Source: Planctomyces sp.
GTDB lineage: Bacteria > Planctomycetota > Planctomycetia > Planctomycetales > Planctomycetaceae
Direction: 5' to 3'
DNA length: 64,000 bases
Assembly (NCBI GenBank): GCA_019636235.1
Contig: JAHBXW010000002.1
Location: 248,001 to 312,000 of the forward strand
The notes beneath the pieces were generated by a model that made no database searches, was not told the DNA's origin, and saw nothing but the letters and a program-made list of their open reading frames with translations. Positions 8,632 through 63,182 of this stretch are shown in pieces. The position numbers and the translations under genes were made by a program. Position 1 is the first letter of the stretch. Every line of letters starts with the position of its first letter.

Positions 8632-11600
8632 TCAGCGGCGGGCCTCCAGCTGCTGGCCCATTTCGGTCCAGTGCGACCGCTCCAGTGGGTGCAGGTCATC
8701 GGGCTTCAGACCGAGTTCCCGGGCGCGGGCCAGCGCCGACTCGGCGGCGGCCCGGTTCCCGATCAGCGAGTTGGCCCGCGCCAGGTGGAAATAGGCGACG
8801 GCTGTGGGCGCTTCTGCGACGGACGCCTCGAGGTCCTGAATCGCCTGGCGCACATTGCCGCGGGCGACGTACACCGTCGCCCGCGTGTCGAGGAGCTGCG
8901 GCAGCGGCCCCGACTGGGCGATCGCCCGGTTGACCAGGTCGAGCGCCTGGTCCAGCGACTTGTTCTGAAGCGCCAGCAAGAGCGCCAGGTTATTCAGCGC
9001 GACGGTCGAATCGGGATTCTTCTCCAGGACGAGCTGATACAGCGCGATCGCTTCGTCGTAGCGGCCCTGGACGTTCCGCAGCGACGCAAGTTGCGTCGCC
9101 AGGAACATGGAATCCTGCTTCCGCATGATAACTGCGCTGAGGATCCGGTCGATCCGATCGAGCTGCGCGGACGACGGCCGCTGTTCCTCGACAATCCGCA
9201 TGACGGCCGCGGCCACGGCCTGCGGGAGAGCATCGGCGGAGTTCTGCTCGATGACGTCGAGCGCCTGGTCGATGCCGCCCTGCCGGGCCATGAGTCCGGC
9301 GAGATTCAGCATCTCGGCCTTGCGGCCCGACTTCTCGACGTAGGTGCGGCACACGGTCTCCGCAGCGTCGATCCGGCCGATTTCCTCCAGCAGGTTGAGC
9401 GCCAACCGATAGCTCATTTCGTACAGGGCGCCGTTCAGGACCTGCGTGCGGACTTCCGGACCGAGGATCTGCACCGCCTCATTGGGATTCCCCAGGGCCA
9501 GCGCCTCCTCGGCGCGGGTCACGATCGTCGGATTCAATGTGCTGCCGTTCGCGTCCAGAAATTCGCGGATGACCTGTGCTGCGCGTTCCTTTTCGAGCTG
9601 ATTGGACAACAGGCTGAGCGACAGTTCGGTCGGATTCACGCGCAACGCCGCGAAGCTGGAGACGACCTGGCTGGCGGCCTCGTCGGTGCGGCCCTGGGAG
9701 TGGGCGAGCCGGGCTCGAAGGCAGGCGACGCCGAAGAAGTCGGGCACGAGCAGGGCCAGGTCCTCCAGCCGCCGCTGTGCGACGTCGATGCGATCGTGCT
9801 TGATGAGGCCGCCCACGAACTCGGCGAGGATGACGGAGTCCTCGGGGCGGGCCTTATGCAGTTCGGCGAACTGCGTTTCGGCCTTGGGCCAGTCGCCGAC
9901 GGATTCGTAGAGCTGGGCCAGCCGGAACTGTTCCGCGCTGGACAGCGGTTCCAGCGACAGGATTTCCTCGAGCAGCGCGATCTGGCGTCGCTGGGAATCG
10001 CGTCCGGCGAGCCGGGCGAGGATCAGCGACTGCGCCTTGAGGACGCGCGCGTGCCAGCTCTTGTCCGGGGTTTCGATGTCCCGGAGGAGCTGGATCGCGT
10101 GTTCGATGTCGGCGGGACGTCCCGAGACGCCGATGACGGCGGCTTTGGAAATCGTCGCCTGGACGCGGCCGGTGGCGGACAACAGGTTCGACGCGAGGAG
10201 TTCGTCGAAGATTTCCTGAGCTTCCGCGTTGCGGCCTTTCCGCATGTGGGCGGTGGCGACGGCGAAACGGATCGCGGGATGCGTCGATTCGGCCGCGAGG
10301 GCCTGCTCGTAGCGTTCGTCGGCGAGGGCCTGGAAGCGGCGGCGGTCATCGGCGGCGAGGCCGGGTCCGTTGGCGAGGAGTTCATAGCCATTGCCGGCGG
10401 TGAATGGCCGAATGTAAGGCGGGGCCTCCGGGAGTTTCTGTTCGCAGTCGGCGATGGCGGCTTCGGCCTGCTCGCGATTGCCGGTGCGGACGTAGTAGGT
10501 GATCAGCGCGACCCAGGCGTTCGGAAGTCCGGGGGCGTCGGTCACGGTTTCGCGCAGGAGTCGTTCCGCTTCGCGAACGGCGTTCAGCGCCGCCGGTTTG
10601 AGGGCTTCCGGATTTTTGTGGACGCCCGCCAGTTCCGCGTCGGTCAGGCCGGAGCGGGCCAGCCATTGCTGGGCCATCAGCAGCTTGTCGGCGGGAGTCT
10701 GGTTGGACAGCCGCTGGCCGATGCCGATGGCCTGTTCGACCTGGGCCTGCGACCAGAGCAACCGGTTGGCGACGCGGCCGACATCGCCGGACAGCAGCGA
10801 GGGCTTCTGGTTCTCGACGATATCGAGCAGCCGCTGGGCGTTCTCCTGCGCGGCCGTCTTTTCGTTGGCGCTGCCGGACAGGGCGGCCTGGCGATAGGCG
10901 TCGAGGACGCTTCCGACGACGAGTTCGGAGCGGTCGCCGAGGGCGATGGCGCGTTCGAAGTGGCGGATGGCGAGTTCGCGGTTGCCGAGGAGCAGTTCAA
11001 TGCCGCCCAGCGCGCGGGGGATCATGGACCAGGACGATCGCTGGCGGCCGGCGCCTTCCAGCTGCGCGCGGGCTGGCGCGAGGCGGGCCTGCAGGTTCGC
11101 CTGGCTGGACCGGAGGGAGTCATCGCGGAGGGCGGCGGCGATGATCCGCCGCGCGGTGAAGGCGGTGTAAAACGGGCCGCTGCCATTGCCGCCTTCGATG
11201 GCGTTGACTCCGTCAAGATGCCGGGTCCATTTCTCGGCGTCGACGTCCTTGGCGCTGACATTGCGGTCGAGGTCGTGGAGAAGGAGCTCGAGCACGGCGA
11301 CATGCGGCCGGATGTCCTTTTCGTCGAGGCCGACGACCTGTTCCCAGAGATCCAGGGCGATGTCGATGCGTCCCGCGGCGGCGTAGCTGGCGGCCAGCGC
11401 TTCATACAACGTGCGGCGGTCGTTGTCTTTGAAGCTGTCGATCTGGTGCCGGACGTCGTCCAGCATCTGCAGCGCGACCTCGGTCGGGAACGTCGAGGCC
11501 GTCCGGATGGCGGCCAGCCGGAGGTCCACGGAATCCCCCAACTGGTCGAGGGACGTGGTGAGCCGTTGCTGAGTGGCGGCGACGCGCGCCTCGGGTTCGA

Positions 11601-14070
11601 GATCGAACCGGCGGGAGGCGAGTCCGACCAGCGCGACGGACGCCTGCGAATCGTTGGGGAATTGCTCGCGCGCCTGTTTGAGGACGGCTTCGGCCTTCTG
11701 GATGAAGGCCAGCGCCGCGTCGCGGTGCTGTTCCGTGTTGCGGGCGGCGAACAGCTGCTGCTCGGTGATGGCGCGGAGGAAGGCGTGTTCGGCGGTCAGC
11801 ACGGCCATGCGCGGAGACGGCAGCGGGGCATCGGCGGGCCGGTCCAGGGGGGCCAGCTTGTCGAGCAACTGCCAGTTGCGGCGCTCGGGGAGCTGATTGG
11901 ACAGCTGGATCAGCATGAGTTCCGCGAGCCGTTCGATGGCTGCGGGCGTCGCGGCTGAGGCCACGACGCGGGTGTACTTGGCGACGGCATCGTCGAGCCG
12001 GCCGAGTTCGGCCAGCGCGGCGGCCTCGCCCAGTTCCCACTGCACGACCTGCGGCCAGATGGGGTCGGCCTGTGCGGCGATGCGGTAGGTTTCGAGAACG
12101 GCGTCGGGATTGCCGAGCCGCGAATGGCATTCGACGAGCTGCAGGATCGCGCGGCGCCAGAGGTCGGTCCGCCGTTCCATGGAGGTCAGCAAATCGCGGA
12201 TCGCGAGCTGTGCGGCGTGCCAGTTCTCCTGATCCATCAGCCGGCGAACTGCGAGCAGCTTGATGAGCACCGGCGGAGGTTCGGGCTTGATGGCCTCGAA
12301 TTCCGCGGCGGCCAGTTCCGCGGCGGCGCGGGCTTCCTCGGTTTTGTCCAGGCGGGCGATGGAGAACAGGACTTCGATCAGCGTCCAATGCAGGTTGACC
12401 CGGCGGGCTTCAGCGACGGCCGAGGCTTGACGTTCCGCGGGGGACTGAGCGAGGACGGAGCGGGCGGGGGCGTCGCCGATGGCGCGGGTGGCCAGTTCGA
12501 CGCCGCTGCGAAGCCGCCGTTCGGCCTTGCGGAGCTGGTCGAGGTGCTGGGCCTCGCTTTCGACGTCGGCCAGCGCGCGGAGTTCCAGTTCGGCGGCAGC
12601 CGCAACGAGCCGGGCGTCCGTCTGGGGGAGATCATCGCCGCGGGCGGCGAACTCGCGGGCGAGTCCCAGGTAGCGGTCGGTCGTGGGCTGCAGCGAATTC
12701 TGGCTGGCGGCCGATCCGCGGCCGGACTTCGCCTGATTTTCATCGTATCGGGAGAGATCGGCCAGCCCGGTGTAGACCTCGACGAGGGACACCAGGATCG
12801 CCGCCGGATCGACGGGGGGCGGCGTCTCCTCGGAGGCTTCGAGGCTGCGCCAGGCGACGAGCGCGGAGCGTTCCGCCTCGTTCAGGCGGGCCTGCGGCTC
12901 GCGGATGCGGACGCGGGCGATGAGTTCGCGGCGGTCGATGCGGCCATCGCTGTTTTCGTCCGCAATTACCGGAACCTTGGCGTTGAAGCGTTCCGCGCCC
13001 TGCAGCGTGCCGTTGCGGTTGGCGTCGGCGACGCGGAGGATGTCGTCCGCCATGTCGGCGGCAGAGGCGTCGTCCGTCGCGGGCAGCGATTCCGCGATCG
13101 TGGACCGTTCGAGCAGAAAGCGGGCGCGGCGCTGTTCGGCCAGCATCGCGGGCTGCACATTCTGGCGCATGACCTCGAGCAGCGCGACGGCGCAGTGGGG
13201 CGAAGCGCGGCGCAGGCCGTCAAACGTGCCGGGCAGGATGTCGCGGACGAACTCGAAACGCGGGGTCGCCAGCTCAGGGATAATGGCGGCGTCCAGCGCC
13301 TGTTCGGGGGCGTCGTACCAGAGTTCGGCGAGCGTCGTGTAGTTCTCCGGATTGCCCCGGTCGCGAGCGAGCGCTTCCAGGTAGCTGACCTGTGCGGGGA
13401 CAGGTTCGCCGAGCAGCAGGCGGCACTGCCCCTGCAGCCGGAAGAGTTCGGCGGCGTCCGGTTCGGCTCCGCTTTCCGTGGGAAGCAGCGACTGGAGGTG
13501 ATCGAGCGCATCGCGGTAGCGGCCGATCTGCATGGCCAGTTGCACGACCCGACGGCGAATTTCCTGGCGTTCGGGGTCGCGGCGGAGGACGTCTTCGTAG
13601 GCCCTGTAGACCTTGATCCAGCTCCGCATGGCCTTCGCGGGAGACTCCTCGGGATCGGCGTTCTGCGCGCCGGCGTCGTACAGGCCGGCGAGGCGCGCCA
13701 GCAGGTCGATGTGCTCCCGCTTCTGGTCCTCTTCGTCGCTTTCGCGGCCTGGCGGATGCCGCATCTGGAGGTACTGGTTGAGCAGCCGGACGGCGTCTCC
13801 GGATTTGCCGGCCTGCTCGGCTTCGTTGGCGCGGGCCAGGACGCGTGTCGCGTTCCGGTGCACGACGGCGTCGTGGGCGAACTTCATGCCCCCCGCGACA
13901 GCTCCGACGAGCACCAGCGAGATAATGATGAACTTCAGGTTCACGCGGCGCGCATGGCGAATCACCGGCTCCTCCGGGGCCGCCCCCGAGGCCGCGGCAG
14001 CGGTCGGCTGCGGAGGCCGCATGGACGACTGGAGCGGGACAGCCTTCGACTTCTTGTGTGCCCGAGACAT
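8632..14070 (-). CDS. giant membrane-anchored TPR protein with EF-hand pair
   Basis: A 1,812-residue protein. A short basic, Pro/Ala-rich cytoplasmic N-terminus is followed by one membrane segment (about 46-62); the rest is extracytoplasmic and almost entirely alpha-helical TPR-like repeats (for example LYQLVLEKNPDSTVALNNLALLL near the C-terminus). Two consecutive EF-hand loops interrupt it: DANRNGTLQGAE (349-360) and DENSDGRIDRRE (371-382), each with acidic or Asn ligands at positions 1, 3, 5 and Glu at 12. In exosortase loci a TPR protein (PrsT) is a typical companion; this one is about twice that size, so the parallel is only functional. No strong Shine-Dalgarno sequence is seen before the ATG (AGGTCAGGTC). 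Confidence 0.8.
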   Translation of the reverse strand: MSRAHKKSKAVPLQSSMRPPQPTAAAASGAAPEEPVIRHARRVNLKFIIISLVLVGAVAGGMKFAHDAVVHRNATRVLARANEAEQAGKSGDAVRLLNQYLQMRHPPGRESDEEDQKREHIDLLARLAGLYDAGAQNADPEESPAKAMRSWIKVYRAYEDVLRRDPERQEIRRRVVQLAMQIGRYRDALDHLQSLLPTESGAEPDAAELFRLQGQCRLLLGEPVPAQVSYLEALARDRGNPENYTTLAELWYDAPEQALDAAIIPELATPRFEFVRDILPGTFDGLRRASPHCAVALLEVMRQNVQPAMLAEQRRARFLLERSTIAESLPATDDASAADMADDILRVADANRNGTLQGAERFNAKVPVIADENSDGRIDRRELIARVRIREPQARLNEAERSALVAWRSLEASEETPPPVDPAAILVSLVEVYTGLADLSRYDENQAKSGRGSAASQNSLQPTTDRYLGLAREFAARGDDLPQTDARLVAAAAELELRALADVESEAQHLDQLRKAERRLRSGVELATRAIGDAPARSVLAQSPAERQASAVAEARRVNLHWTLIEVLFSIARLDKTEEARAAAELAAAEFEAIKPEPPPVLIKLLAVRRLMDQENWHAAQLAIRDLLTSMERRTDLWRRAILQLVECHSRLGNPDAVLETYRIAAQADPIWPQVVQWELGEAAALAELGRLDDAVAKYTRVVASAATPAAIERLAELMLIQLSNQLPERRNWQLLDKLAPLDRPADAPLPSPRMAVLTAEHAFLRAITEQQLFAARNTEQHRDAALAFIQKAEAVLKQAREQFPNDSQASVALVGLASRRFDLEPEARVAATQQRLTTSLDQLGDSVDLRLAAIRTASTFPTEVALQMLDDVRHQIDSFKDNDRRTLYEALAASYAAAGRIDIALDLWEQVVGLDEKDIRPHVAVLELLLHDLDRNVSAKDVDAEKWTRHLDGVNAIEGGNGSGPFYTAFTARRIIAAALRDDSLRSSQANLQARLAPARAQLEGAGRQRSSWSMIPRALGGIELLLGNRELAIRHFERAIALGDRSELVVGSVLDAYRQAALSGSANEKTAAQENAQRLLDIVENQKPSLLSGDVGRVANRLLWSQAQVEQAIGIGQRLSNQTPADKLLMAQQWLARSGLTDAELAGVHKNPEALKPAALNAVREAERLLRETVTDAPGLPNAWVALITYYVRTGNREQAEAAIADCEQKLPEAPPYIRPFTAGNGYELLANGPGLAADDRRRFQALADERYEQALAAESTHPAIRFAVATAHMRKGRNAEAQEIFDELLASNLLSATGRVQATISKAAVIGVSGRPADIEHAIQLLRDIETPDKSWHARVLKAQSLILARLAGRDSQRRQIALLEEILSLEPLSSAEQFRLAQLYESVGDWPKAETQFAELHKARPEDSVILAEFVGGLIKHDRIDVAQRRLEDLALLVPDFFGVACLRARLAHSQGRTDEAASQVVSSFAALRVNPTELSLSLLSNQLEKERAAQVIREFLDANGSTLNPTIVTRAEEALALGNPNEAVQILGPEVRTQVLNGALYEMSYRLALNLLEEIGRIDAAETVCRTYVEKSGRKAEMLNLAGLMARQGGIDQALDVIEQNSADALPQAVAAAVMRIVEEQRPSSAQLDRIDRILSAVIMRKQDSMFLATQLASLRNVQGRYDEAIALYQLVLEKNPDSTVALNNLALLLALQNKSLDQALDLVNRAIAQSGPLPQLLDTRATVYVARGNVRQAIQDLEASVAEAPTAVAYFHLARANSLIGNRAAAESALARARELGLKPDDLHPLERSHWTEMGQQLEARR

Positions 14071-14186: not shown

Positions 14187-15677
14187 TTACTGTCGACGAT
14201 GACCCTGGAATCGGAGAACCGGCTCATTATGCGAGGCGCGGGGTCCGGACGCCAGAATCTCCGTCCGGGATCGTTCCGAGGGCGATTCGTCATCCCCCGC
14301 CGTCGTCATGTGGACGGCGAGCAGCCCCAGAAAGCCTCCGAATGAGGCGATCAGGACGTCCGCCAGGTCCGGGATTCGGGTCGGGACGAAAAACTGCCCG
14401 AACTCGATTCCCGCCGCCAGGCTCACGATGACCAGCGTTCCTAATGCGACACTCCAGCGACGATTCGCCCCCAGCCGACGATTCGCCAGCGACAACCCAA
14501 CCAACACGCCCAGCGGAAGATACAGCACCGACCGTTCGACAAACTGGGAGATGGAACGCGCGTACGACTGATTCAGCAGCAGGCCGTCCAACGGCAGCCG
14601 GGCAGCGCTCCGGAACTTGGACCGCAGCATGTCAGGCTCGGCCGAGAACTTCAGCGGCCACCAGAGCACACAGGCCGGGATCAACAGGTAGGCGGCCGTC
14701 AGCGCCTCCCAGGGCACGGTCCGGCCGGGCGACTCCGCGATGCCGGGCGATGGCTGCCGTCCGACGATCAGCCAACCGGCGAGGGCCGCTCCGGCGAGTC
14801 CCGCCAGTCCGCCCACGATGAGGTCCGTCGCCTCGGCGTATCGAGATTCGATCAACACCTGCCCGGCTTCGACGCAGCCGACCAGAAACAGGGCCGCGGC
14901 CGCGCCTCCCAGCACGGTCCGGGGCGGCGAGGAACTGCCGGGAAACCGCAGCACCCCCAGCAGCCCCAGCGGCAGCGTCAACAGAAAGAGCTGCAGCAGG
15001 CCGAACAGGCCATCCGCGGTCGGCGAGACGTTTTGGAACGGGACGAGGGAGATCCTTCCGTTCTGGAACTTGTGCCACAGGTCGACAGGGTGAATCGTGA
15101 CATCGAACGGGATCAACTGCACGACGACGAAGCCCGCGAAGTACAGGGCCAGGCAGGCGCGCAGCCGATCCGGACTGCGATGGGCCGTCCGGAAGCCCGT
15201 GATCCAGCGGTCGAGAGTCGCCCCGATGACCAGCCAGCCCAGAACGCCTGCCGACGACCCCGCGAGCTGGCAGACGACGTCAGACCGCGACGACGTGCGT
15301 GCGGCGATCCAGGCCTGCGCGACTTCGTTCATCGTGCTGATCATCGCGGTCAGCGACAGCGTGAGCAGGACGATGAAAACCGTCCGAATCGGGCGCGTCC
15401 AGCCGGCGTTCAGCCAACCGGCAAGTCCGAATCCCACGGGCATGAACAACATCGCATTGGCGAGGCCGTCGATTCGTCCGCGGCTCCAGGTCGGCGTCAA
15501 GGGGCTGTGCAGGAACGCGGTCCAGGCGTCCTGCAGCGTCGTCTCCCGGAAGCGGAACGGCAGCAGCGACCCATAGATTGAAAACGACGCGCACAAAACC
15601 GCCAGCAGCAGGTACAGCGCCGCATGAGTGCGGGGCCGGCCTGTTTGCGGGAGCGGCGAGCGGATGTCGACTGGCAT
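14187..15677 (-). CDS. VanZ-family membrane protein with three VanZ units
   Basis: A 496-residue polytopic membrane protein. The VanZ core signature, written E-x2-Q-x5-R-x5-D, occurs three times at exactly the same internal spacing: E118/Q121/R127/D133, E270/Q273/R279/D285 and E425/Q428/R434/D440. Each is preceded by a PLG/PVG turn in a membrane helix (PVGFGLAG, LPLGLLG, LPLGVLVG) and a P-[FL]-x-[FV] entry motif. The unit length is about 152-155 residues, so the protein is an internal triplication. VanZ confers low-level teicoplanin resistance in enterococci, but family members are widespread in polysaccharide loci and their biochemical role is unclear. The start ATG overlaps the stop of the upstream gene (TGATG). 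Confidence 0.85.
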   Translation of the reverse strand: MPVDIRSPLPQTGRPRTHAALYLLLAVLCASFSIYGSLLPFRFRETTLQDAWTAFLHSPLTPTWSRGRIDGLANAMLFMPVGFGLAGWLNAGWTRPIRTVFIVLLTLSLTAMISTMNEVAQAWIAARTSSRSDVVCQLAGSSAGVLGWLVIGATLDRWITGFRTAHRSPDRLRACLALYFAGFVVVQLIPFDVTIHPVDLWHKFQNGRISLVPFQNVSPTADGLFGLLQLFLLTLPLGLLGVLRFPGSSSPPRTVLGGAAAALFLVGCVEAGQVLIESRYAEATDLIVGGLAGLAGAALAGWLIVGRQPSPGIAESPGRTVPWEALTAAYLLIPACVLWWPLKFSAEPDMLRSKFRSAARLPLDGLLLNQSYARSISQFVERSVLYLPLGVLVGLSLANRRLGANRRWSVALGTLVIVSLAAGIEFGQFFVPTRIPDLADVLIASFGGFLGLLAVHMTTAGDDESPSERSRTEILASGPRASHNEPVLRFQGHRRQ

Positions 15678-16657
15678 CAGGACGCGTCGATCGTTCTGTG
15701 GGGAGCTGGTTGAAACGTGAATCCCGCTTCAGGCGTGGCACGGATCGGCGGCTGCGGGCGTTCCTGTTGACGGCGGGGGGCGGGCGCGGGGGCGGGGCGG
15801 TTGCCGCGGTTGGCGTCGAAGGCTCCGAACCGCGGAACGCCCTGCTCGTCGATCCGGAGTTCGGCGCCGCGGCTGCCTTCGGCGTTCGTGGCGGCGACGA
15901 CGGCCCGTCCGTCGGGCGAGACGACCATGCTGGCGCCCGGTTCGCCGCCGACTCGGCGGGCGGAGATGATCGTCATGCCGTCCGGCAGGCGAATCATCGA
16001 GGGGCCCGAGCCGTCGGACGAGCCGATGGCCATTTCGGCGACGCCATCTTCATGCGCGGCGAGGACGGGACCGCTCTGACCATCGCTGGCCGTTACGTGC
16101 ACTGATGCGAGACCGGCCGGATTGGCCCGCAGGAAGACATTGCCCTTGCCGGACTGCGGCCGAAGCAGGATGTGCGCTTCGCCAGTTGCGGTGCGGGACA
16201 AGGAAACCTGCGGCGACTGATCGGCGCCATCAAGGCGGACCTCCGACGCCCCGTCCACCGCGAGCGACAGCTGCATTCCGGCCCCGCCCGTGACGTTCAT
16301 GGCGATTTGCTGGGCGCCATTGCGGTCGGACGTCAGGGCCATCGTTGCTCCGTCCTCGCCGAGGACGATCCGCGCCTGCTGGTCAGCGAGCGCCTCCAGC
16401 TTGAGGGCCGTGGCCCCATCCCGGTGGCGGAGAGTGATGGCGGGCTGTCCCTCCGCATCGATGCCGATGTCTATGCGGACGCGCCCTGATTCGTCGCGAA
16501 TCTGCAGGCGGTCGCCATCCGGCAGGCCGCCTTCCGCAGCCGCTGGAGGATCGCTGAACGCGTGCGCCGTCTGGAACGGTCCGCGTTCGCCGGCGACGAG
16601 CAGCATCAAAAGTCCCAATGACGCGCCATACAGCATCAGTCTCTCGAGTCGGCTCAT
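15677..16657 (-). CDS. membrane-anchored beta-repeat protein, unknown
   Basis: A 326-residue protein of unrecognised family. An N-terminal membrane anchor or signal (MSRLERLMLYGASLGLLMLLVAG) is followed by about 230 residues of short beta-strand units separated by D-G, N-G or S-G turns (for example LQIRDESGRVRIDIGI and AVVAATNAEGSRGAEL). The unit spacing is roughly 20-24 residues, suggesting a beta-solenoid or beta-propeller. A Pro/Arg/Gln-rich C-terminal tail follows. The ATG at 16657 has a GGGAGG Shine-Dalgarno sequence 5 bases upstream, which decides it over the longer frame. Its start overlaps the stop of one VanZ gene and its stop overlaps the start of another, so it is translated with both. 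Confidence 0.65.
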   Translation of the reverse strand: MSRLERLMLYGASLGLLMLLVAGERGPFQTAHAFSDPPAAAEGGLPDGDRLQIRDESGRVRIDIGIDAEGQPAITLRHRDGATALKLEALADQQARIVLGEDGATMALTSDRNGAQQIAMNVTGGAGMQLSLAVDGASEVRLDGADQSPQVSLSRTATGEAHILLRPQSGKGNVFLRANPAGLASVHVTASDGQSGPVLAAHEDGVAEMAIGSSDGSGPSMIRLPDGMTIISARRVGGEPGASMVVSPDGRAVVAATNAEGSRGAELRIDEQGVPRFGAFDANRGNRPAPAPAPRRQQERPQPPIRATPEAGFTFQPAPHRTIDAS

Positions 16658-17244
16658 GGACGCCTCCCTGGCAGGATGGAAGAGGCGGGCGGGGCGGGCG
16701 AGCAGCCCCGCCGCGACGCGCCGGACGCGTCCGCGGTCAGACCGCGGCAACCGGCGAATGTCCAACCAACGGCGACAACGAGCGCGCCTGTCGCGATCCC
16801 GCTGAGGTTCGCCGCCAGATCATGCAGCGTGGCGTCCCGGCCGGGGACCCAGTGCTGAATTGTTTCGGTCGCGATGCCATGCGCCGCCGCCAGCGACAGC
16901 ATACGGATGATGCCGCGCTCCCGGCCGTATGTGATCAGCAGGAGCGCGGCAAACACGATGTAAACGCAGGCGTGCTCCAGCCAGTCGGCGACCGTCGACG
17001 AAATCGCGCTGTCGATCGCGGCGCCGGTCTTCCCCAGGAAAAACAACGGCTCCGGCGCCACCAGCAGCCAGGTCAGCCCCAGCGCGTACAGCGCCGTGGC
17101 GATCCTCAGCAGTCGCTGGCCGCGCGAGGACTGGACGATCGGGGCTTCGCCCGGATCCACTGCGGAACCGGCTCCGTCCAGGGGAGCGGACGACGGCTGT
17201 GCGTGAGGTCGCCGGCGCGACGCCAGTTTTCCGGAAGTCGACAT
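16654..17244 (-). CDS. VanZ-family protein (single unit)
   Basis: A 196-residue membrane protein. After a 40-residue polar N-terminus there are about four membrane helices, and the VanZ signature E127-x2-Q130-x5-R136-x5-D142 shows the same spacing as the three copies in the triplicated VanZ protein two genes downstream. The downstream gene starts inside its stop codon (ATGA). The C-terminus is a short Ala/Ser/Arg-rich tail. The substrate is unknown; a role with the undecaprenyl-linked glycan pathway is only suggested by context. Confidence 0.78.
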   Translation of the reverse strand: MSTSGKLASRRRPHAQPSSAPLDGAGSAVDPGEAPIVQSSRGQRLLRIATALYALGLTWLLVAPEPLFFLGKTGAAIDSAISSTVADWLEHACVYIVFAALLLITYGRERGIIRMLSLAAAHGIATETIQHWVPGRDATLHDLAANLSGIATGALVVAVGWTFAGCRGLTADASGASRRGCSPAPPASSILPGRRP

Positions 17245-17309: not shown

Positions 17310-17897
17310 TCAGCCCGCCATCCGCAGGACGGTTCGGGCCATCAGCGACAGATCCAACAGCAGCGACTGCCGCTGCAGGTACTCTTTGCCGAGGGCGATC
17401 TTGTCGGGCAGGATCTGGCGAACGTACATCGCCTCCGGGTCGGACGACTGGCCAAGCAGCTCGGACTCGTGGCGATACCGCAGGGAAGCGATATCGGTGA
17501 TGCCGGGACGGACCCGCAGCAGTTGCTCGTAGTCGTCGCGGAACAGCTCGACATAGCGGGGCACTTCGGGGCGCGGACCGACGAGGCTCATGTCGCCTTT
17601 CAGCACGTTGATGAGCTGGGGCAGCTCGTCGATCTTCGTGCGGCGCAGGAACTGGCCGACCGGAGTGATCCGCGGATCGCGCCCGGCGGTGAGTTGGGCG
17701 CCGCGGGCCTCCGCGTCCTGGACCATCGTGCGGAACTTCAGGATCTGAAACGGGGCGAAGTTCCGCCCGACCCGCGTCTGTCGAAAGAACACGGGCCCGC
17801 GGGACGTCAAACGCACCAGGAGCGCGGTCAGCGCGAGGAGCGGGCTGAGGACCAACAGTCCCGTCGCCGAGGCGAGGATGTCGACCGCGCGTTTCAT
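17310..17897 (-). CDS. small initiating sugar-phosphate transferase (PglC/WcaJ type)
   Basis: A 195-residue monotopic phosphoglycosyl transferase that would load the first sugar-phosphate onto undecaprenyl phosphate. It has an N-terminal re-entrant membrane helix (about 8-30), KFRTM (54-58), the catalytic Asp90-Glu91 pair in [23 protein letters not shown] (106-111) and a PGITDIASL segment. It lacks the extra membrane domain of WcaJ/WbaP and so matches the minimal PglC-like form. It overlaps the aminotransferase gene upstream by 4 bases (ATGA), implying coupled expression of sugar amination and priming. Confidence 0.9.
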
Positions 17898-19087
17898 CGG
17901 CGATGGCTTTCGACGATCTGCCGGATCGTGGCGGCGACGTAGTCGATCTCCTCGGCCGTCATCGTCGGATAGATCGGCAGTGAAATGATCCGGTCGAACA
18001 CCGACTGCGCGACGGGCAGTTGCTCCGGAGCGTATCCCAACCGCTCGCGGTACAGCGGGTGCATGTGCAGCGGCAGGTAGTGGACGCTGGTGCCGACGCC
18101 GGCCGCGTTGATGGCCTGGATGAACTCATTGCGGTTCAGCGTCAGTCGGTCGACGTCGACCTGAATGACGTACAGGTGCCACGCATGACCGACCTCGGGG
18201 CGCGTCGTCGGCAGTTTGAGCTCCGGGAGATCGGCGAACGCCGCGTCGTACGCGCGGGCGATTTCCGCCCGCCGCTGGTGGAACTGGCCGCTTTTCTCCA
18301 ACTGGTGCAGACCGATCGCGGCGGCCAGGTCGGTCAGGTTGTACTTGTAGCCGGGGGCGAGGATCTCGTAGTACCACGAGCCCTCGGCGCTGAACCGCTT
18401 CCAGGCGTCCTTGCTGATGCCATGCATCGACATCAGCCGGACGCGGTCAGCAAGCTGGCGGTCGTTAGTGGTGACCATCCCGCCTTCGCCGGTGGTGATC
18501 GTTTTGTTGGCGTAGAACGAGAAGCAGGTGAGTTCGCTGATCGCGCCGACGCGGCGGCCGTCGTATTCGGCCGGGATGGCATGGGCGGCGTCCTCGATCA
18601 CGTGCAGCCCCCGCCGGCGGGCGATCTCCTGGATCTGGTCCATGTCGCAGGGATGCCCCGCGTAGTGCACGGGCAGGATGGCGCGGGTCCGCTCGGTGAT
18701 CCGCGATTCGATCTGGTCCGAATCGATGCACAGCGTGTCGGCGCAGCAGTCCACGAGCACCGGCGTCGCGCCGAGATGCATGACCGTTTCGCCCGTCGAG
18801 GCGAACGTCAGCGTCGGGACCAGCACTTCGTCCCCCGGGCCGACGCCGATCGCCTCCAGCGCCAAATGCAGCGCCGCGGTGCAGGAGTTCACCGCGATGG
18901 CGAACTCAGCCCCCACGTACTCGGCGAACTGCTGCTCCAGCTTGCGGACCTTCGGACCGGTGGTCAGCCATCCGGAGCGAAGAGTTTCGACGACCGACTG
19001 AATTTCCTCTTCGCCGATCGTCGGACGGAAGAAGGGAATCTGGAACTGCTTCAGCGCCGCGGGCGCGGCGGTCACAGGCGACGACAT
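17894..19087 (-). CDS. DegT/DnrJ/EryC1/StrS sugar aminotransferase
   Basis: A 397-residue PLP-dependent enzyme that aminates a nucleotide-linked keto sugar. The PLP-binding lysine is Lys195 in FSFYANKTITTGEGG. The N-terminal FFRPTIGEEEIQSVVETLRSGWLTTGPKV and the conserved EDAAHA segment are typical of the ArnB/PglE/DegT family. It sits between a membrane-tethered SDR (123 bases upstream) and the sugar-phosphate transferase (overlapping downstream), the usual company for making an amino-sugar donor. The exact sugar cannot be told. The start ATG is preceded by GGAG in the reverse direction only at a distance, so the start is less certain than the rest. Confidence 0.9.
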   Translation of the reverse strand: MSSPVTAAPAALKQFQIPFFRPTIGEEEIQSVVETLRSGWLTTGPKVRKLEQQFAEYVGAEFAIAVNSCTAALHLALEAIGVGPGDEVLVPTLTFASTGETVMHLGATPVLVDCCADTLCIDSDQIESRITERTRAILPVHYAGHPCDMDQIQEIARRRGLHVIEDAAHAIPAEYDGRRVGAISELTCFSFYANKTITTGEGGMVTTNDRQLADRVRLMSMHGISKDAWKRFSAEGSWYYEILAPGYKYNLTDLAAAIGLHQLEKSGQFHQRRAEIARAYDAAFADLPELKLPTTRPEVGHAWHLYVIQVDVDRLTLNRNEFIQAINAAGVGTSVHYLPLHMHPLYRERLGYAPEQLPVAQSVFDRIISLPIYPTMTAEEIDYVAATIRQIVESHRR

Positions 19088-19210: not shown

Positions 19211-20791
19211 TCAGGGAGCCTTCGCGGCGACTGTCTGAAGATCACGCGGGGCGCGAGCGCTGGCAAGGTGCTTCGTCCAGTCGTCGTCGACCCGGACGAT
19301 GTCGATCGCGCCGGAGTCCTTGAGGTGCTTGACATTGCTGTAACGGGCGTCGCGATAATCGACCACCTCATGCCCGGCGATCGCCTCCAGCACCTGCTGG
19401 ATGCCGGACTCGACGGTCCACTGCGGCTCGAAGTTCAGCAGCCGGTGGATTTTCTCGAAGCTCACGCGGTAGTTCCGCTTGTCGGGCGAGTTCTCGTCGA
19501 TCATCAGATCGGCTCCCATGACGCGCTCGTGCACGAGGCGGCCGATTTGCGAGATCGTATAGTTCTGGGCGTCGGATCCGACGTTGAAGATCTCGCCGCC
19601 GACGATGGACAGCGGGGCCTTGAGGGCGGTCGCCACGGCCAGCGCGGCGTCGTCCACATGCACGAACGGGCGCCACTGGTCGCCGCCATGCACGGTGATC
19701 ACCCCCTCCATCTTGGCCCGGGCGGCCAGCAGATTGACGACCAGGTCGAACCGCGTGCGCCCCGACAGGCCGTAGATCGTCGCGAACCGCAGGATCGTCG
19801 GCTGGAAGTTGCTGTCCGCCATCTGCTGCAGGCCCTGCTCGGCGGCCAGCTTGGTATGTCCGTACAGGGAGATGGGGTGCACTTCGGAGTGCTCGTCGAG
19901 CGTCTCATCGCAGGCGCCGTAGACTGAGCAGGTGCTGGCGAAGATGAACTTCGAGATGCCGCGGGCCTTGGCGACCTGGGCGATCATCTGCGTGGCGCTG
20001 AGGTTCACGCCGAGGGTCAGTTTCTCATCGAGGTCGCAGGCGGGATCGCCGACGATGGCCCCCAGATGGATGACCGAGTGCATGCCCTCCATCGCGGTGA
20101 CGACTTCCTGCACATGGCGGAAGTCCCCCTTGATAAGTTCCAGCCGCTCGTGATCAGCGACTGGCGCCAGCGGCTCGCGGCCGTACAGGAACATGTCCAG
20201 CACGCGCACGCGGTAGCCCTGATCCAGCAACTTGGGCACCAGGGCCGAGCCGATGTAGCCCGCGCCGCCGATGACCAGCACGTTCTTGCCCTGCTTGCGG
20301 CGGGGAACCTTCTTCTCCCGCTCGGGGCGGATGACCGTCTCCCACAGGAAGGTCCATGTCCGCGACACCAGGCAGAGGACCAGAGTGAACACGCCGGCCA
20401 GAAGCAACGCCCCGCGGGGCAGTTCCACCCAGCTGGGGACGTCCCACAGCAGGTAAGTCGCAAAGCCGAACATCAGGAAGCTCTGCAGGACGGCGCCGGA
20501 GATCGTCAGGGCCTTGTACTTGCCCTGATAAGCGCGGCCGTACGTGTAGAAGCCGAACCAGGCGAAAACCGCCAGCGACACGATCGTCAGCAGCGGCGCG
20601 TTCCAGCAGTACGCCTTCACATAGTGCTGCGTCAGGGCGGGGATGCCGACCTGTACCGCCAGCCGGGAACTGGCGTCGACCAGAAACCTCAGCAGCAGGG
20701 CGGCGACGAGCGCCATATTCACCATGGCGGCATCGGCCGCCATCCGGGCCAGCATGCCGCGGGTCACGCGGCGCCTCAGACGTTTCAACAT
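19211..20791 (-). CDS. membrane-tethered NAD-dependent epimerase/dehydratase
   Basis: A 526-residue fusion-like protein. Four membrane helices (about 21-38, 64-83, 95-116, 126-147) resemble the N-terminal region of WbpM/PglF/CapD enzymes, and a soluble extended short-chain dehydrogenase domain follows. The SDR part has GGAGYIGS (175-182), a conserved STCSVYG and the catalytic YGHTK (Y-x3-K), closer to GalE/UDP-sugar decarboxylase types than to the PglF 4,6-dehydratases. I chose the ATG at 20791 because GAGGTAGGA lies 6 bases upstream; the ATG at 20809 lacks a Shine-Dalgarno sequence. It probably supplies the keto or epimerised sugar for the aminotransferase gene downstream. Confidence 0.8.
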   Translation of the reverse strand: MLKRLRRRVTRGMLARMAADAAMVNMALVAALLLRFLVDASSRLAVQVGIPALTQHYVKAYCWNAPLLTIVSLAVFAWFGFYTYGRAYQGKYKALTISGAVLQSFLMFGFATYLLWDVPSWVELPRGALLLAGVFTLVLCLVSRTWTFLWETVIRPEREKKVPRRKQGKNVLVIGGAGYIGSALVPKLLDQGYRVRVLDMFLYGREPLAPVADHERLELIKGDFRHVQEVVTAMEGMHSVIHLGAIVGDPACDLDEKLTLGVNLSATQMIAQVAKARGISKFIFASTCSVYGACDETLDEHSEVHPISLYGHTKLAAEQGLQQMADSNFQPTILRFATIYGLSGRTRFDLVVNLLAARAKMEGVITVHGGDQWRPFVHVDDAALAVATALKAPLSIVGGEIFNVGSDAQNYTISQIGRLVHERVMGADLMIDENSPDKRNYRVSFEKIHRLLNFEPQWTVESGIQQVLEAIAGHEVVDYRDARYSNVKHLKDSGAIDIVRVDDDWTKHLASARAPRDLQTVAAKAP

Positions 20792-21013
20792 TGGTCCTAC
20801 CTCAAACATCGGTCGCGAGCAGAAATTTCAGCGCGGATGCGCACGCACCCGTCGAGCAATCGGCCTCTCGAAATCGAGCGGCCGCTTCAGTCAGGAAACA
20901 ATCAGGAGACAGTCATCAGACAGCAGTCAGAACCTTGGAAAGCAGCGGCCAGCGGTCCGCCGTCGGCGAACTCTGGAGCGGTGTGAGGGGCGGCGGCGCG
21001 CCGCCCGTCGGCG
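20792..21013. other. 222-base intergenic region with hairpin and short repeats
   Basis: The largest gap in the window. It holds a GC hairpin (20988-21006: 8-bp stem, 3-base loop) directly after the acyl-CoA ligase stop, a 12-base palindrome (20867-20878: CTCGA-AA-TCGAG), and a cluster of TCAG/CAGTCA repeats between about 20887 and 20930. No open reading frame or convincing promoter for the SDR gene was found. The hairpin has no T-tract, so termination there is uncertain. Confidence 0.4.
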
Positions 21014-22639
21014 TCAGGCGTTGGCCGGCCCCTGCGGGAGCTGGTGTTCCGCAGCGTTCGATTTCAATTGCGATCGCCGAACCTTGCCGCTGGCGGTGCG
21101 GGGCAGGCAATCCACGATCTCGACCTCGCGGGGCTGTTTGTGCCGGGCCAGCCGGACGCGGCAGTGCGTCATGACCCGCGCGGCGAGGTCGGCGGGCGCG
21201 TCGGCCGCGGGCACCACGAACGCGACGGGACGTTCCCCCCAGACAGGGTCGTCCATGCCGACGACGGCCGCTTCGGCGACCCCCGCCACCTCAATGATCG
21301 AGGCTTCGATTTCCAAGGGATGCACGCGGAAGGCGCCGCTTTTGATGAGATCGTTGCTGCGCCCGACGATGAAGATGAACCCCTCGTCGTCGATCGTCGC
21401 CAGGTCGCCCGTGTGCAGACCCTGCGGGCCGAGCGTCCGCTGGGTGCCTGCGGGATCGTTCCAGTAGCCCGCCATCACGTTGTCGCCGCTGGCGACGATC
21501 TCGCCCACTTCGCCCGGCGGGACCGAAACGCCCGCGTCGTCGAGAACCTGCAGCGTCACGCCGTCGATCCCCCGGCCGATGGACCCGGCCTTCCGATCAA
21601 GGTCCTCCGGCAGCAGCGTCGACAGCCGGGCCGTCGCCTCCGTCTGGCCGTACATCAGGAACAGTTCCGCCTTGGGCAGCGTCTCGCGGACCGCGTTGAC
21701 GTGCGCCCGCGGCAGCGAGCCCCCGGCGCACGTCAGGTAACGCAGCGAGGGAAACGTCCGGCTCTTCAGGTCGGACCGCTGCAGCAACAGCGCGTAGCTC
21801 GACGGCACGCCCGCGAAGCCGGTGACCTCCTGTTTCTGCAGCAGATCGAGGACACGGTTCAGGAACACGAAATCCGGCGCGAGGACCAGCCGCCCGCCGC
21901 ACGCCAGGTGCGTGAACAACAGCGAATTGCCGTAGGAGTAGTAGAACGGCAGCACGACCAGGACGCTGTCGTGCTCGGTGAGGCTCAGGTACGAGAGAAT
22001 CGCGGCGCAGTTGGCGGCGATGTTCGCGTGGCTGAGCATCACGCCCTTCGGTGGGCCGGTCGTCCCGGAGGTATAAATGATCTGCGCCAGCGAGTTGCCG
22101 GCGGGAAGCGGGCCAGCCGCCGGGGCGTCGGACGTCGCGAAGTCCCAGGGAAGGATGCGTCCGCCGCTGAGATCGGAAGCCGCGGAGGCCGCGCCCGTGT
22201 ACACGAGGTACAGCGGCAGCGGTTCGCCGAGCTGGTTCAGTGTGTGGAGCGCGTCCGCGAACCGCCCCATCCCCTTGGGATCGAGCACGGCGGCGACCGG
22301 CCGGCAGTCCCGAATCACAAACGCGATCTCCTCGGCGGTCGAATCGGGATTCACGGCGACGACAGCCGCGCCGGCTCGCAGAATCCCCAACCACGCCGCG
22401 ACGTACGTCGCCGAGTTCGGCAGCAGCAACACGACGCGGTCGCCCGGCAGGCAGCCGATCGACTCCAGCCAGGCCGCGAACCGTTCCGCGCGAGCGTGAA
22501 GTTCGCCGTAACTGACGTCGACTCCGCGGTCGTGGACGGCGGTGCGCTCGGGGGATGCCTCCGCGTGTTGCGCGAACTGCTCCCACAGGAGCGGCGGCGC
22601 GGTGCGCGGGGCGTTCAGGATTTCAGGGCCAGCAGACAT
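21014..22639 (-). CDS. acyl-CoA ligase (AMP-forming), EPS-associated
   Basis: A 541-residue adenylate-forming enzyme. AMP-binding motif IIYTSGTTGPPKG (188-198 region), YGQTEAT in the core and the catalytic lysine segment RTASGKVRRSQL near the C-terminus are intact, so activation of a carboxylate to acyl-AMP and on to CoA or an acyl carrier protein is expected. The ATG at 22639 fits the family's usual N-terminus (PPLLWEQF...); a longer start at 22756 is possible and neither has a good Shine-Dalgarno sequence. A stand-alone acyl carrier protein and a two-domain GNAT protein lie just upstream, the same company kept by exosortase-A-type acyl-CoA ligases. Confidence 0.88.
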   Translation of the reverse strand: MSAGPEILNAPRTAPPLLWEQFAQHAEASPERTAVHDRGVDVSYGELHARAERFAAWLESIGCLPGDRVVLLLPNSATYVAAWLGILRAGAAVVAVNPDSTAEEIAFVIRDCRPVAAVLDPKGMGRFADALHTLNQLGEPLPLYLVYTGAASAASDLSGGRILPWDFATSDAPAAGPLPAGNSLAQIIYTSGTTGPPKGVMLSHANIAANCAAILSYLSLTEHDSVLVVLPFYYSYGNSLLFTHLACGGRLVLAPDFVFLNRVLDLLQKQEVTGFAGVPSSYALLLQRSDLKSRTFPSLRYLTCAGGSLPRAHVNAVRETLPKAELFLMYGQTEATARLSTLLPEDLDRKAGSIGRGIDGVTLQVLDDAGVSVPPGEVGEIVASGDNVMAGYWNDPAGTQRTLGPQGLHTGDLATIDDEGFIFIVGRSNDLIKSGAFRVHPLEIEASIIEVAGVAEAAVVGMDDPVWGERPVAFVVPAADAPADLAARVMTHCRVRLARHKQPREVEIVDCLPRTASGKVRRSQLKSNAAEHQLPQGPANA

Positions 22640-22845
22640 AAAGGGGGTCCGCACGGGGCAACAGCGGCGCGGGATTCGGCGGGGCCGGTCCGCGCTCGCG
22701 ATCAGCGTCGGCGTTCCATCGTGAAACAGCGGGCGTCCGTTCCGGGCAGCGGGCATTCCAGGCAGCAGGTCGGCGAGTCGGGGGACGTCCGCCGGGATCG
22801 AAGCAAAGGCGGGGCGAGATGTCAGGGATGGCGGCAGCCCGCGGC
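22640..22845. other. 206-base gap between ligase and carrier protein
   Basis: No gene of its own. The frame of the ligase stays open here to 22756, so part of it could be an N-terminal extension. No terminator, promoter or repeat was recognised. Confidence 0.4.
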
Positions 22846-30395: not shown

Positions 30396-31469
30396 TCAGG
30401 GAATGCCCGCCATGATCTTCGGGCCCACCCGGCGGCTGACCGCCAGGGGCAGCCGCTGCCAGATGCGGCCGGCCCAGCCGAGGCGTTCCTGCGGGGGCGC
30501 GGCGGCGGCCTGGGCCTGCTCCGCGGATTCGCTGAGGAAGTACCAGTGGAGCGGCGTCTCGGCCGCGCCCCACTGCTTCTTGAAGTGATGCTGGCCGGAC
30601 CCCTCGGTGCTGCGTCCGAAGCGGAACGTTGCGAACCCGTCCCGGCAGGCCTGTTCGAGGATCCGCCAGTACATCAGGTGATTCACGCACAGGGAATTGG
30701 CTTTGCGCAGGCTCGAGGCCCAGGGGATCTCGAGCGCCGTCCCATTCGCGAGGGTCAATCCCGCGCCCACCGCCTGGCGGCCCAGTCGCACGATCCACAC
30801 CCGGACCTCCGCGGGAAACGCCCGGGCCACCGCCAGGAAAATGTCCGGCGAGTGGCTGGGGCTGCCCAGGTCCCGCATGTTGCGGGAGTAAACCTCGAAG
30901 AATTCGTCCAGCAGTTCGGCCTTGCCGACCGCCACGTGCAGGTCCGATTTCTCAGCCTTGCGGACCTGATTGCGGACCTTGGAAGACAGCCGCTTCCAGA
31001 GCGTTTCCGACGAGCGCTCCAGCGGCAGTTCCATCAGCAGCTTGTCGGTCCGGACGTGCGGCGACAGATTCGACGCGTTCCGCTCGCGGATCTGCACCGA
31101 GTCGGCCTTCCAGTCCCGGGTCAGCCCCATCGCCGCCTGGGCGAGCGCCGACCGGGCCGCGTCGTCGTCGGCGAGAATCCCCACTCCATCGCACCACGGC
31201 AGCGACACCAGTTGCCGACCGGTCAATCGGCTGGCCTGACGAACCAGCGGCAGCACGCCGACGATCCGGCCATTTCGCCAGGCCGCCAGAGGCAGGGATG
31301 GCAGGCCGTAGACGTTCCACACCGTCCGCCACGCCGCGCGGTGAAACAGCGGACATTCCGTGCGGGCCAGCACGTAATGATCCCAGGCGGCGACGTCATT
31401 GCAGACGGAAACGTCCGTCAACACGGCGTCGGCGGCGCGCGGCAGCGGCTGCAGGGCGACGGGAGTCAT
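30396..31469 (-). CDS. FemAB-family protein, exosortase/EPS-associated
   Basis: A 357-residue protein of the FemAB/GNAT-like fold that transfers acyl or aminoacyl groups. Visible are the double-GNAT layout, LSSKVRNQVRKAEKS (binding loop) and the C-terminal FRFGRSTEGSGQHHFKKQWG, a hallmark of FemAB proteins from PEP-CTERM loci. It likely decorates a glycan or peptide at the membrane. The ATG overlaps the stop of the GT2 gene upstream (ATGA). No peptidoglycan substrate is implied. Confidence 0.85.
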   Translation of the reverse strand: MTPVALQPLPRAADAVLTDVSVCNDVAAWDHYVLARTECPLFHRAAWRTVWNVYGLPSLPLAAWRNGRIVGVLPLVRQASRLTGRQLVSLPWCDGVGILADDDAARSALAQAAMGLTRDWKADSVQIRERNASNLSPHVRTDKLLMELPLERSSETLWKRLSSKVRNQVRKAEKSDLHVAVGKAELLDEFFEVYSRNMRDLGSPSHSPDIFLAVARAFPAEVRVWIVRLGRQAVGAGLTLANGTALEIPWASSLRKANSLCVNHLMYWRILEQACRDGFATFRFGRSTEGSGQHHFKKQWGAAETPLHWYFLSESAEQAQAAAAPPQERLGWAGRIWQRLPLAVSRRVGPKIMAGIP

Positions 31470-32734
31470 ATCAGTTCGATCCGAATCCGCTCGCGGCTCG
31501 ACCCCGCGACCGAGTGCGGCTGGTCCGCGCCTTGCGGCAGGCCGTTCACGGGGCAGGTTTCCGATGTTTCGACGTCCGGGGAGGCGACGGGCGTCCGGGA
31601 TGTGCGGCGCCAAATGCCGCTGGGCCGGCAGACGAGTCCGCGGACAAGTCCCACGACCATCGCGATGTGGCTGAGCGTGAAATAAAACGCCATGCCCCCC
31701 AGCCGCGTCCGCCGCACGGTCTGCGAGGCCAAAGCCAGCACCGCGAGTCCGTAAAACGCGAGCTGGCTGTACAGCGCGACCTGATAGATCAGTCCCGCAT
31801 TCCGCAGCCGGATCGAGGCGATCATCAGCAGGACCAGCCACACCGGCCCCAGCCAGCGGAGCAGTTTGTGGGACAGGTACTTCCAGACCTCGAGCGGCTG
31901 GCTGGCGCGGGGCCACAGGCCGCGTTTGAGGGATTGCACGACGCCCGTCTTCACGCGGATGCGCCGCACGAACTCCTGCTTCCAGGTCGGCGTTCCATTC
32001 TCGGTGGCGATCGCGCGCGGTTCGTAGATCAGCCGGGCGCCCTGGCGGATGACGCGCAGCGAGGTTTCGAAGTCATCGAGAATCGTGTCGGGGCGCAGGT
32101 CCTGGAACAGTTCCCGGCGCACGACGTACATCCCGCCGTCGACGCCGATCGTCGATCCGAACCGCGATTCTCCGAGCTGAATCCGGCGCTCGATCGAGTA
32201 ATAGCTGCGTTCGCCCGTTTCGAAGTCCGACTCTTCGCTGGCGATGCGGACGTCGCCGGTCACGGCGCCGATCCGGGGGTCGTCGAAGTGTGCGACCATG
32301 CGCCGCAGGGCGTCGGGCCGAAACAGCACGTTCGCATCGCACAGGCAGAGCACATCGCCCCGGGCCTGCGCCGCCGCCGCGTTGAGCGCCGTCGACTTGC
32401 CCCGATTGGGCTGCAGGTCCAGCACCTCGACGCCTTCGGCCCGGAATCGTGAGGCGATCTCCACTGTGGCGTCCGTGCTGCCGTCGCTGGCGACGATCAC
32501 GTCCAACCGATCGGCGGGGTAGTCGAGGGCCAGCACATTGCGGAGCTTCGCGGCGATCACGAGCTCCTCGTTGTGGGCGGGGATGATCAGGCTGACCGAC
32601 GGCCAGTCGCGCGGCGCCGCCGGTTCAATCGGACGCGCACGGCGCGCGATGACCCACATCAGCAGCGGGTAGCCGACCAGCGCGTACGCCAGCGTCCCGG
32701 CAGCGATCCAGAACATCACGAACCACACAGTCAT
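31466..32734 (-). CDS. membrane family 2 glycosyltransferase (chitin/cellulose synthase-like)
   Basis: A 422-residue processive-type GT2: one N-terminal helix, the catalytic domain (VSLIIPAHNEE, IVASDGSTDAT, LCDANVLF, DDFETSLRVIRQG) and three C-terminal helices. It resembles PgaC/NodC-like enzymes that add GlcNAc or similar. The next gene upstream encodes a paralogue of the same architecture. It lies 36 bases downstream of that gene and its stop overlaps the FemAB start. Donor sugar unknown. Confidence 0.9.
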   Translation of the reverse strand: MTVWFVMFWIAAGTLAYALVGYPLLMWVIARRARPIEPAAPRDWPSVSLIIPAHNEELVIAAKLRNVLALDYPADRLDVIVASDGSTDATVEIASRFRAEGVEVLDLQPNRGKSTALNAAAAQARGDVLCLCDANVLFRPDALRRMVAHFDDPRIGAVTGDVRIASEESDFETGERSYYSIERRIQLGESRFGSTIGVDGGMYVVRRELFQDLRPDTILDDFETSLRVIRQGARLIYEPRAIATENGTPTWKQEFVRRIRVKTGVVQSLKRGLWPRASQPLEVWKYLSHKLLRWLGPVWLVLLMIASIRLRNAGLIYQVALYSQLAFYGLAVLALASQTVRRTRLGGMAFYFTLSHIAMVVGLVRGLVCRPSGIWRRTSRTPVASPDVETSETCPVNGLPQGADQPHSVAGSSRERIRIELI

Positions 32735-62405: not shown

Positions 62406-62455
62406 TTCAGTGCGGATGAGAGGACAGGACGGAAGCTCGCGGCGACGGAGCGAGG

Positions 62456-63121: not shown

Positions 63122-63182
63122 GGAACTGCCCGATGAAATGCGAGGGAAATGTCACGCGGCGGCGGCGTCCCGCCCCCGGCCG

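Follow-up and report, generated by a model that had tools for sequence, protein, structure and literature searches.

A VanZ protein of three unequal units in an exosortase-type exopolysaccharide locus of Planctomyces sp.

Genes at the locus

The gene under study lies on the reverse strand of a 64,000-nucleotide stretch of Planctomyces sp. DNA, which as a whole is referred to here as the window (Table 1). The Pfam VanZ profile (PF04892) matches the encoded protein in three stretches with 91.8 bits (cut-off 30.1), and the pattern E-x2-Q-x5-R-x5-D starts at residues 118, 270 and 425, exactly as a sequence-only reading of this DNA had described. That reading had also placed the pattern once in the separate VanZ gene nearby, where it indeed starts at residue 127. 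The source genome holds four VanZ matches (E <= 0.001), three in the triple-VanZ protein and one in this neighbour. The neighbour scores 26.8 bits against the Pfam profile (below the cut-off of 30.1) and 29 bits against NCBIfam vanZ_1 (cut-off 20). For the protein encoded between the two, no family was found above cut-off in profile searches; its likely start is the ATG at 16657, not the TTG at 16765. The genes for the single VanZ, the middle protein and the triple VanZ each overlap the next by their stop and start codons (ATGA and TGATG), the ATG of the triple-VanZ gene overlapping the stop of the gene before it (TGATG), and the order of single VanZ, middle protein and VanZ array was found again in two relatives (L023 and L025).

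Table 1. Features of the window around the triple-VanZ gene and along the exopolysaccharide locus
Feature	Position	Strand	Remarks
TPR-repeat protein	8632..14070	-	like PrsT of XrtA/PEP-CTERM systems, below curated cut-off
Triple-VanZ protein	14187..15677	-	496 aa; Pfam VanZ in three stretches
VanZ unit 3	14295..14726	-	residues 318-461
Motif copy 3	14358..14405	-	residues 425-440
VanZ unit 2	14760..15179	-	residues 167-306
Motif copy 2	14823..14870	-	residues 270-285
VanZ unit 1	15210..15629	-	residues 17-156
Motif copy 1	15279..15326	-	residues 118-133
Protein between the VanZ genes	15677..16657	-	hydrophobic N-terminus; homologues at the equivalent position in L023 and L025
Companion single VanZ	16654..17244	-	196 aa; His for Asn at the helix-2 position
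Initiating polyprenyl-phosphate sugar transferase (Bac_transf)	17310..17897	-	
DegT/DnrJ sugar aminotransferase	17894..19087	-	
NAD-dependent sugar epimerase/dehydratase	19211..20809	-	
Acyl-CoA ligase	21014..22756	-	like exosortase A-associated ligase, below cut-off
FemAB family XrtA/PEP-CTERM-associated protein	30396..31916	-	294 bits (cut-off 260.35)
O-antigen-ligase-like protein	50364..51674	-	like TIGR03097, 68.9 bits, below cut-off 188.1
Polysaccharide deacetylase, XrtA type	61554..63155	-	274.4 bits, just below cut-off 276.2

By its gene content the window is a long exopolysaccharide locus of the exosortase type. Glycosyltransferases are also found among its exopolysaccharide genes, and several assignments in the locus fall below curated cut-offs. 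The FemAB protein scores above its cut-off, and an exosortase gene stands beside the exopolysaccharide genes, 1.6 kb past the end of the window (G000:C12:313627-314544; 170.9 bits against a cut-off of 25.7 at G000:C12:313627-314247, the frame running on to 314544). The product of the gene at 7054-8022 is similar to PEP-CTERM families but scores under their cut-offs (29.3 bits, with 80 required).

Three homologous units

When the 496-residue protein was shuffled 20,000 times, a single copy of the motif arose in 15 shuffles and two or more copies in none, so that a chance origin can be set aside. Local alignments of unit against unit gave z scores of 5.9 (units 1 and 2), 4.2 (units 1 and 3) and 6.6 (units 2 and 3), matched by 0, 1 and 0 of 300 shuffles, respectively. 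The companion single VanZ aligns with unit 1 (z 5.8) and unit 3 (z 3.7) and does not rise above shuffles against unit 2 (z 0.3).

An AlphaFold2 model built from 76 sequences (mean pLDDT 86.5, pTM 0.81) shows four long helices in each unit, with one helix order three times over: a long helix, a short handle and three long helices. This corresponds to the four core helices and the helical handle between helices 1 and 2 that characterize the VanZ-1 family. In unit 1 the helices span residues 16-38, 48-56, 68-90, 96-124 and 131-164; units 2 and 3 have the same order, and unit 3 has one extra short helix. Since the units align beyond the motif and the helix order is repeated, similarity confined to the short motif does not describe this protein, and the triplication proposed from the letters holds for both alignment and predicted structure.

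The loops that share a membrane side with the termini are richer in Lys and Arg (0.112-0.197 per residue, means over the 76 proteins of set A3) than the motif and handle loops (0.046-0.092). Under the positive-inside rule this places the termini inside and the three motif loops toward the periplasm; the motif loops thus appear to lie on the periplasmic side. An outward-facing site has been predicted for most membrane lipocones in the main text of PMC12419801.

Sequence searches of solved structures gave no match up to E 10, and a Foldseek search with the model gave none at E <= 0.001. The best VIA match pairs residues 14-155 with chain 9n9j_N (Z 8.3, rmsd 3.5, 102 residues aligned), which for helical bundles is under the level of much significance.

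Distribution and origin of the three-unit protein

The sequence-only reading had noted that most VanZ proteins have one unit, which is borne out in 59 related genomes, the source genome included. Of the frames that contain their 108 Pfam VanZ matches, 73 have one match, one has two, 11 have three and none has more; one of the 73 single-match frames (in G294) is nonetheless spanned end to end by profile A3. Over the phylum, profile A3 (E <= 1e-15) matched at least 13 of 392 genomes, the source genome among them, a lower bound because four candidates per genome were scored. Ten of the 13 matches span nearly the whole model, and an eleventh, in G102, does so in two pieces; G298 carries a two-unit form, and the match in G071 is limited to units 2 and 3.

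Proteins with the same order of units also occur beyond the Planctomycetota. A scan of named contigs, with a query drawn from five relatives, gave 211 pattern matches with 113 relatives among them, of which 80 were kept as loci. The carriers include Singulisphaera acidiphila, Rhodopirellula and Pirellulales among the Planctomycetota, Methylomonas, Methylobacter, Nitrotoga and Rhodoferax among the Gamma- and Betaproteobacteria and, outside these, Desulfacinum; many of the named relatives are metagenome assemblies. When each unit was given its own profile, a frame starting with units 1, 2 and 3 in that order was found in 76 of the 80 loci, and for the first proteins found, from which the unit profiles were seeded, this order is given by construction. 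The other four comprise two loci with a split unit-2 match and two broken by contig ends. Over loci L021-L117 and the window together, 87 frames are exactly unit 1-unit 2-unit 3, including two second copies. Four more are unit 1-unit 2, and of these L086 and L097 are incomplete at contig ends.

Several single loci deserve mention. One metagenome assembly with a triple VanZ (L058) is titled Klebsiella pneumoniae, which may be a mislabel. At L023:7542-12902 two VanZ arrays adjoin, one of three units with an FHA domain and one of two units with a right-handed beta-helix. An HtrA-like serine protease family lies near the triple VanZ at L047:11380-12228 and in 14 further named loci. Among the 38 named loci of at least 18 kb, an exopolysaccharide-type marker was seen in 25, none in 13 and an exosortase in 8, all of these being raw counts.

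In a careful tree of 70 unit rows, units 1, 2 and 3 each lie on one side of a branch, with supports of 100/98, 99/95 and 99/95, respectively. This tree drops 17 of the 87 rows (all rows of L031, L032, L034, L036 and L085, and four single proteins). A quick tree of all 87 rows required five label changes, not three, against a mean of 47.1 after shuffling, and in it the three unit groups and the deep branches are weakly supported. Because each unit position forms its own group, the tree indicates that the three-unit protein was assembled once and that its units have kept their places. Recent local tandem duplication is excluded, as the units group by position and not by protein. Four single VanZ proteins from Proteobacteria join unit 1 in the careful tree (95/89).

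Unequal sites in the three units

At the positions named for VanZ-1 in PMC12419801, unit 1 of the window protein has D70, N74, E118, Q121, R127, S130 and D133, with Q137 at the helix-4 Asn position. Unit 2 retains E270, Q273, R279 and D285, with Gly and Leu at the two helix-2 positions, and unit 3 retains E425, Q428, R434 and D440, with Gln and Arg there. Thus the helix-2 Asn typical of VanZ-1 is present in unit 1 (N74), with Leu in its place in unit 2 and Arg in unit 3, and the helix-3 ExxQ, which is common to the Skillet families too, is present in all three. The helix-4 DxDDxxxN is complete in no unit: the third Asp alone is kept in every unit (D133, D285, D440), the first position being occupied by S130, E282 and D437, the second by S132, T284 and A439, and that of the Asn by Q137, G289 and A444 in units 1, 2 and 3. 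Since this motif is incomplete, the units are called VanZ-1-like here, which is short of a proven assignment to VanZ-1.

The same inequality was found in the relatives. Among 16 three-unit proteins collected without residue patterns, the full set of D, N, E, Q, R and D is present in unit 1 of 14 and in unit 2 or 3 of none; the two incomplete unit-1 sites are those of L031 (Asn for Asp) and L034 (Gly and His). This count covers all 16, 13 of which make up set A1 (without L031, L032 and L035). In set A3 the full set is present in 76 of 76 first units, a figure biased because A3 was gathered with patterns that include unit-1 site residues, and in none of the 76 second or third units. A3 leaves out L057 (close to L055), L081 and L084 (split unit-2 match) and L086 and L097 (contig ends); set A4 is without L115 and set A5 without L057. 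At the helix-4 Asn position, 64 of the 76 A3 proteins have Glu and 7 have Gln in unit 1; among single VanZ proteins, 15 of 16 retain the Asn. Every one of the 76 second units has the helix-3 Glu, as have 75 of 76 third units (one gap). Overall, unit 1 is the most conserved, with a mean majority frequency of 0.564, compared with 0.395 and 0.389 for units 2 and 3.

Single VanZ proteins serve as a reference. Near triple-VanZ loci, all nine with the helix-2 Asn carry the full set. In the planctomycetal companion singles, His for the helix-2 Asn occurs together with E, Q, R and D in six of six, and the helix-2 Asp in four of six; L089, incomplete in the alignment, is counted in neither group.

The six companions with His are those of the window (16654-17244), L021:7794-8285, L023:14040-14633, L024:9904-11772, L025:2-430 and L070:6093-6575. 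Five of them form one group in the careful tree (100/96), from which L025 is absent. The L024 companion forms a fusion with a PHP/CehA-type metallohydrolase; in L070 and its relative L021 a part resembling this protein precedes the triple VanZ.

Strictly constant spacing had been taken to mean that all copies carry the same functional core. This is not supported, since the full site with the helix-2 Asp and Asn is found in unit 1 (14 of 16) and in none of the second or third units. What the constant spacing shows is, as judged by sequence, common descent of helices 3 and 4, not a shared function. We infer that one unit is catalytic and that the other two have diverged into accessory units, which may yet have functions of their own in view of their class-specific conserved residues.

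These residues also bear on a reading in which all three sites work, each unit being catalytic or a carrier site and having its own substrate or step in a three-stage relay along the lipid-linked glycan. They do not look like random decay: at position 230 of unit 2, 26 of 27 ligase-fused proteins have Glu and 17 of 22 module-a-fused proteins have Asp, and at position 382 of unit 3, 20 of those 22 have Lys; moreover, the helix-3 Glu survives in every unit. We nevertheless regard three working sites as rather unlikely. The helix-2 Asp/Asn pair is gone from units 2 and 3 (full set in 0 of 76 each). Proteins fused to the ligase, 27 in number and all with an intact unit-1 site, have lost more site positions in units 2 and 3, with the unit-2 Arg replaced by Gly in 22, the unit-2 Asp by Ser in 26 and the unit-3 Gln by Lys in 24.

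The unequal sites likewise weigh on the earlier suggestion that VanZ may act as an oligomer, taken here as a trimer of like units general to VanZ proteins, which would have been fused into one chain. Nearly all multi-unit proteins found have three units, not two or four, and the single-chain model is confident (pTM 0.81), which speaks for such a fusion. Yet the units have diverged, group by position and differ in their sites, and two-unit forms exist (L037 and L023:10695-12902), which makes this the least probable of the readings considered. Three units that have diverged while retaining their positions within the chain point instead to an assembly inside the protein whose parts divide the work, and a general VanZ oligomer does not follow from the three-unit protein.

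Fusions to an O-antigen ligase and other partners

A C-terminal tail of one family is present in 27 triple-VanZ proteins. When the tails were scanned alone, the O-antigen ligase domain Wzy_C was found (E <= 0.01) in 26 of 26, the incomplete L115 lying outside the scan; at the same threshold, whole-protein Pfam scans did not list it for the ligase-fused L085, L098 and L107. In L025 Wzy_C is N-terminal to the VanZ units, and eleven loci (L040, L041, L044, L045, L050, L053, L056, L058, L059, L092 and L104) have a separate open reading frame resembling the ligase-type tails. O-antigen ligases and polymerases act on polyprenyl-diphosphate-linked glycans. The fusion places the triple VanZ at the polymerisation or transfer step of a polyprenyl-linked glycan, and it is the strongest hint to its function.

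A membrane module of about 350 residues is fused before or after the VanZ units in 23 proteins (e.g. L063:11303-12376, from the triple-VanZ carrier Methylomonas sp. LW13). It has an invariant TDN and other invariant residues, and its model (pLDDT 83.8, 22 sequences) gave no Foldseek match at E <= 0.001; in Pfam at E <= 0.01, one of the 22 aligned members was matched (Abhydrolase_9_N, 0.0012). FHA and, in two-unit forms, a beta-helix occur less often as partners.

Such varied partners (O-antigen ligase, the membrane module, FHA and the beta-helix of the two-unit forms) would also suit a platform, that is, a non-catalytic sensor or scaffold that positions a polymerase or ligase or reports on the lipid carrier, its VanZ sites merely binding. 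The absence from unit 1 of the helix-4 Asn of single VanZ proteins agrees with such a role. The remaining polar site of unit 1, however, is intact in all three fusion classes, as expected of an enzyme, and we consider a non-catalytic role of this kind improbable.

A possible function in the exopolysaccharide pathway

Our preferred reading, to which we give about an even chance (roughly 0.5), is that of a 12-helix inner-membrane protein, a once-assembled trio of VanZ-1-like lipocones, in which unit 1 would be catalytic on a polyprenyl-linked exopolysaccharide glycan. Assembled once in an ancestor, the protein would then have spread among several bacterial phyla, by movement or through great age. 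A catalytic unit 1 would fit the chemistry predicted for VanZ families in the main text of PMC12419801, in which carrier lipids of the outer leaflet have their phosphate-linked head groups cleaved or exchanged, as predicted there from kin such as TelC and PTDSS1/2. Units 2 and 3, as diverged lipocones that retain the helix-3 Glu, would be accessory, holding lipid or stabilising the assembly.

The protein would act outside the inner membrane, on its outer face, and its substrate would be a polyprenyl-(di)phosphate-linked glycan at the polymerase or ligase step of the exosortase/PEP-CTERM route to exopolysaccharide. There, it might cleave or transfer the phosphate-linked head group, or hand the glycan to an enzyme of the O-antigen-ligase type and aid recycling of the carrier. 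Unit 1 might also act on the released carrier, and in either case the triple VanZ would work together with the ligase. A more specific version makes the protein a dedicated processor of the lipid carrier in polysaccharide pathways of the exosortase type, in which unit 1 cleaves or transfers the polyprenyl-phosphate-linked glycan and units 2 and 3 hold other lipid-linked chains or the freed carrier and pass them to the fused or neighbouring ligase. We expect this version to be unlikely as a whole; if true, the triple VanZ would be a missing partner of the O-antigen-ligase-type enzyme, with a built-in division of labour.

VanZ is widespread, and a chain with one nearly complete and two incomplete sites comes with built-in controls, as unit 1 can be compared with units 2 and 3. 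The physical fusion to an O-antigen ligase in the relatives ties VanZ to a particular step and offers a concrete handle on VanZ function.

Comparison with known systems

In the open-licence literature of PubMed Central, no description of a triplicated VanZ was found among titles and the beginnings of abstracts, nor a paper on VanZ with exosortase and exopolysaccharide or with PEP-CTERM. The main text of PMC12419801 contains neither 'triplicat' nor 'exosortase', and 'planctomycet', absent there, has one occurrence by text search; its supplement may list such proteins.

Three known systems come close. Unit 3 aligns with VanZ-A of vancomycin and teicoplanin resistance (NF033125) over residues 338-454 with 27.8 bits. 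The triple VanZ nevertheless differs from VanZ-A in its gene context and stays far under the 250-bit cut-off of that family; on the low score and the exopolysaccharide context, we reject a reading as a glycopeptide-resistance gene. O-antigen ligases and polymerases (Wzy_C, PF04932; TIGR03097) are fused to the triple-VanZ units or lie near them in relatives. They are nonetheless another family, and the triple VanZ of the window lacks such a domain, the ligase-like gene of the window lying 35 kb off.

The closest likeness is to the VanZ-1 family of the Lipocone superfamily (PF04892), as set out in the main text of Burroughs, Nicastro and Aravind (2025, PMC12419801). Its members share with the triple VanZ the four-helix units with a handle helix, the helix-2 Asn, the helix-3 ExxQ, the helix-4 Asp, the predicted outward site and a context of polysaccharide genes. 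A betaproteobacterial duplication whose C-terminal copy is inactive is also mentioned there. Unlike the VanZ-1 lipocones described there, the triple VanZ has three units in one chain, in a fixed order, of which the first alone has a nearly complete site.
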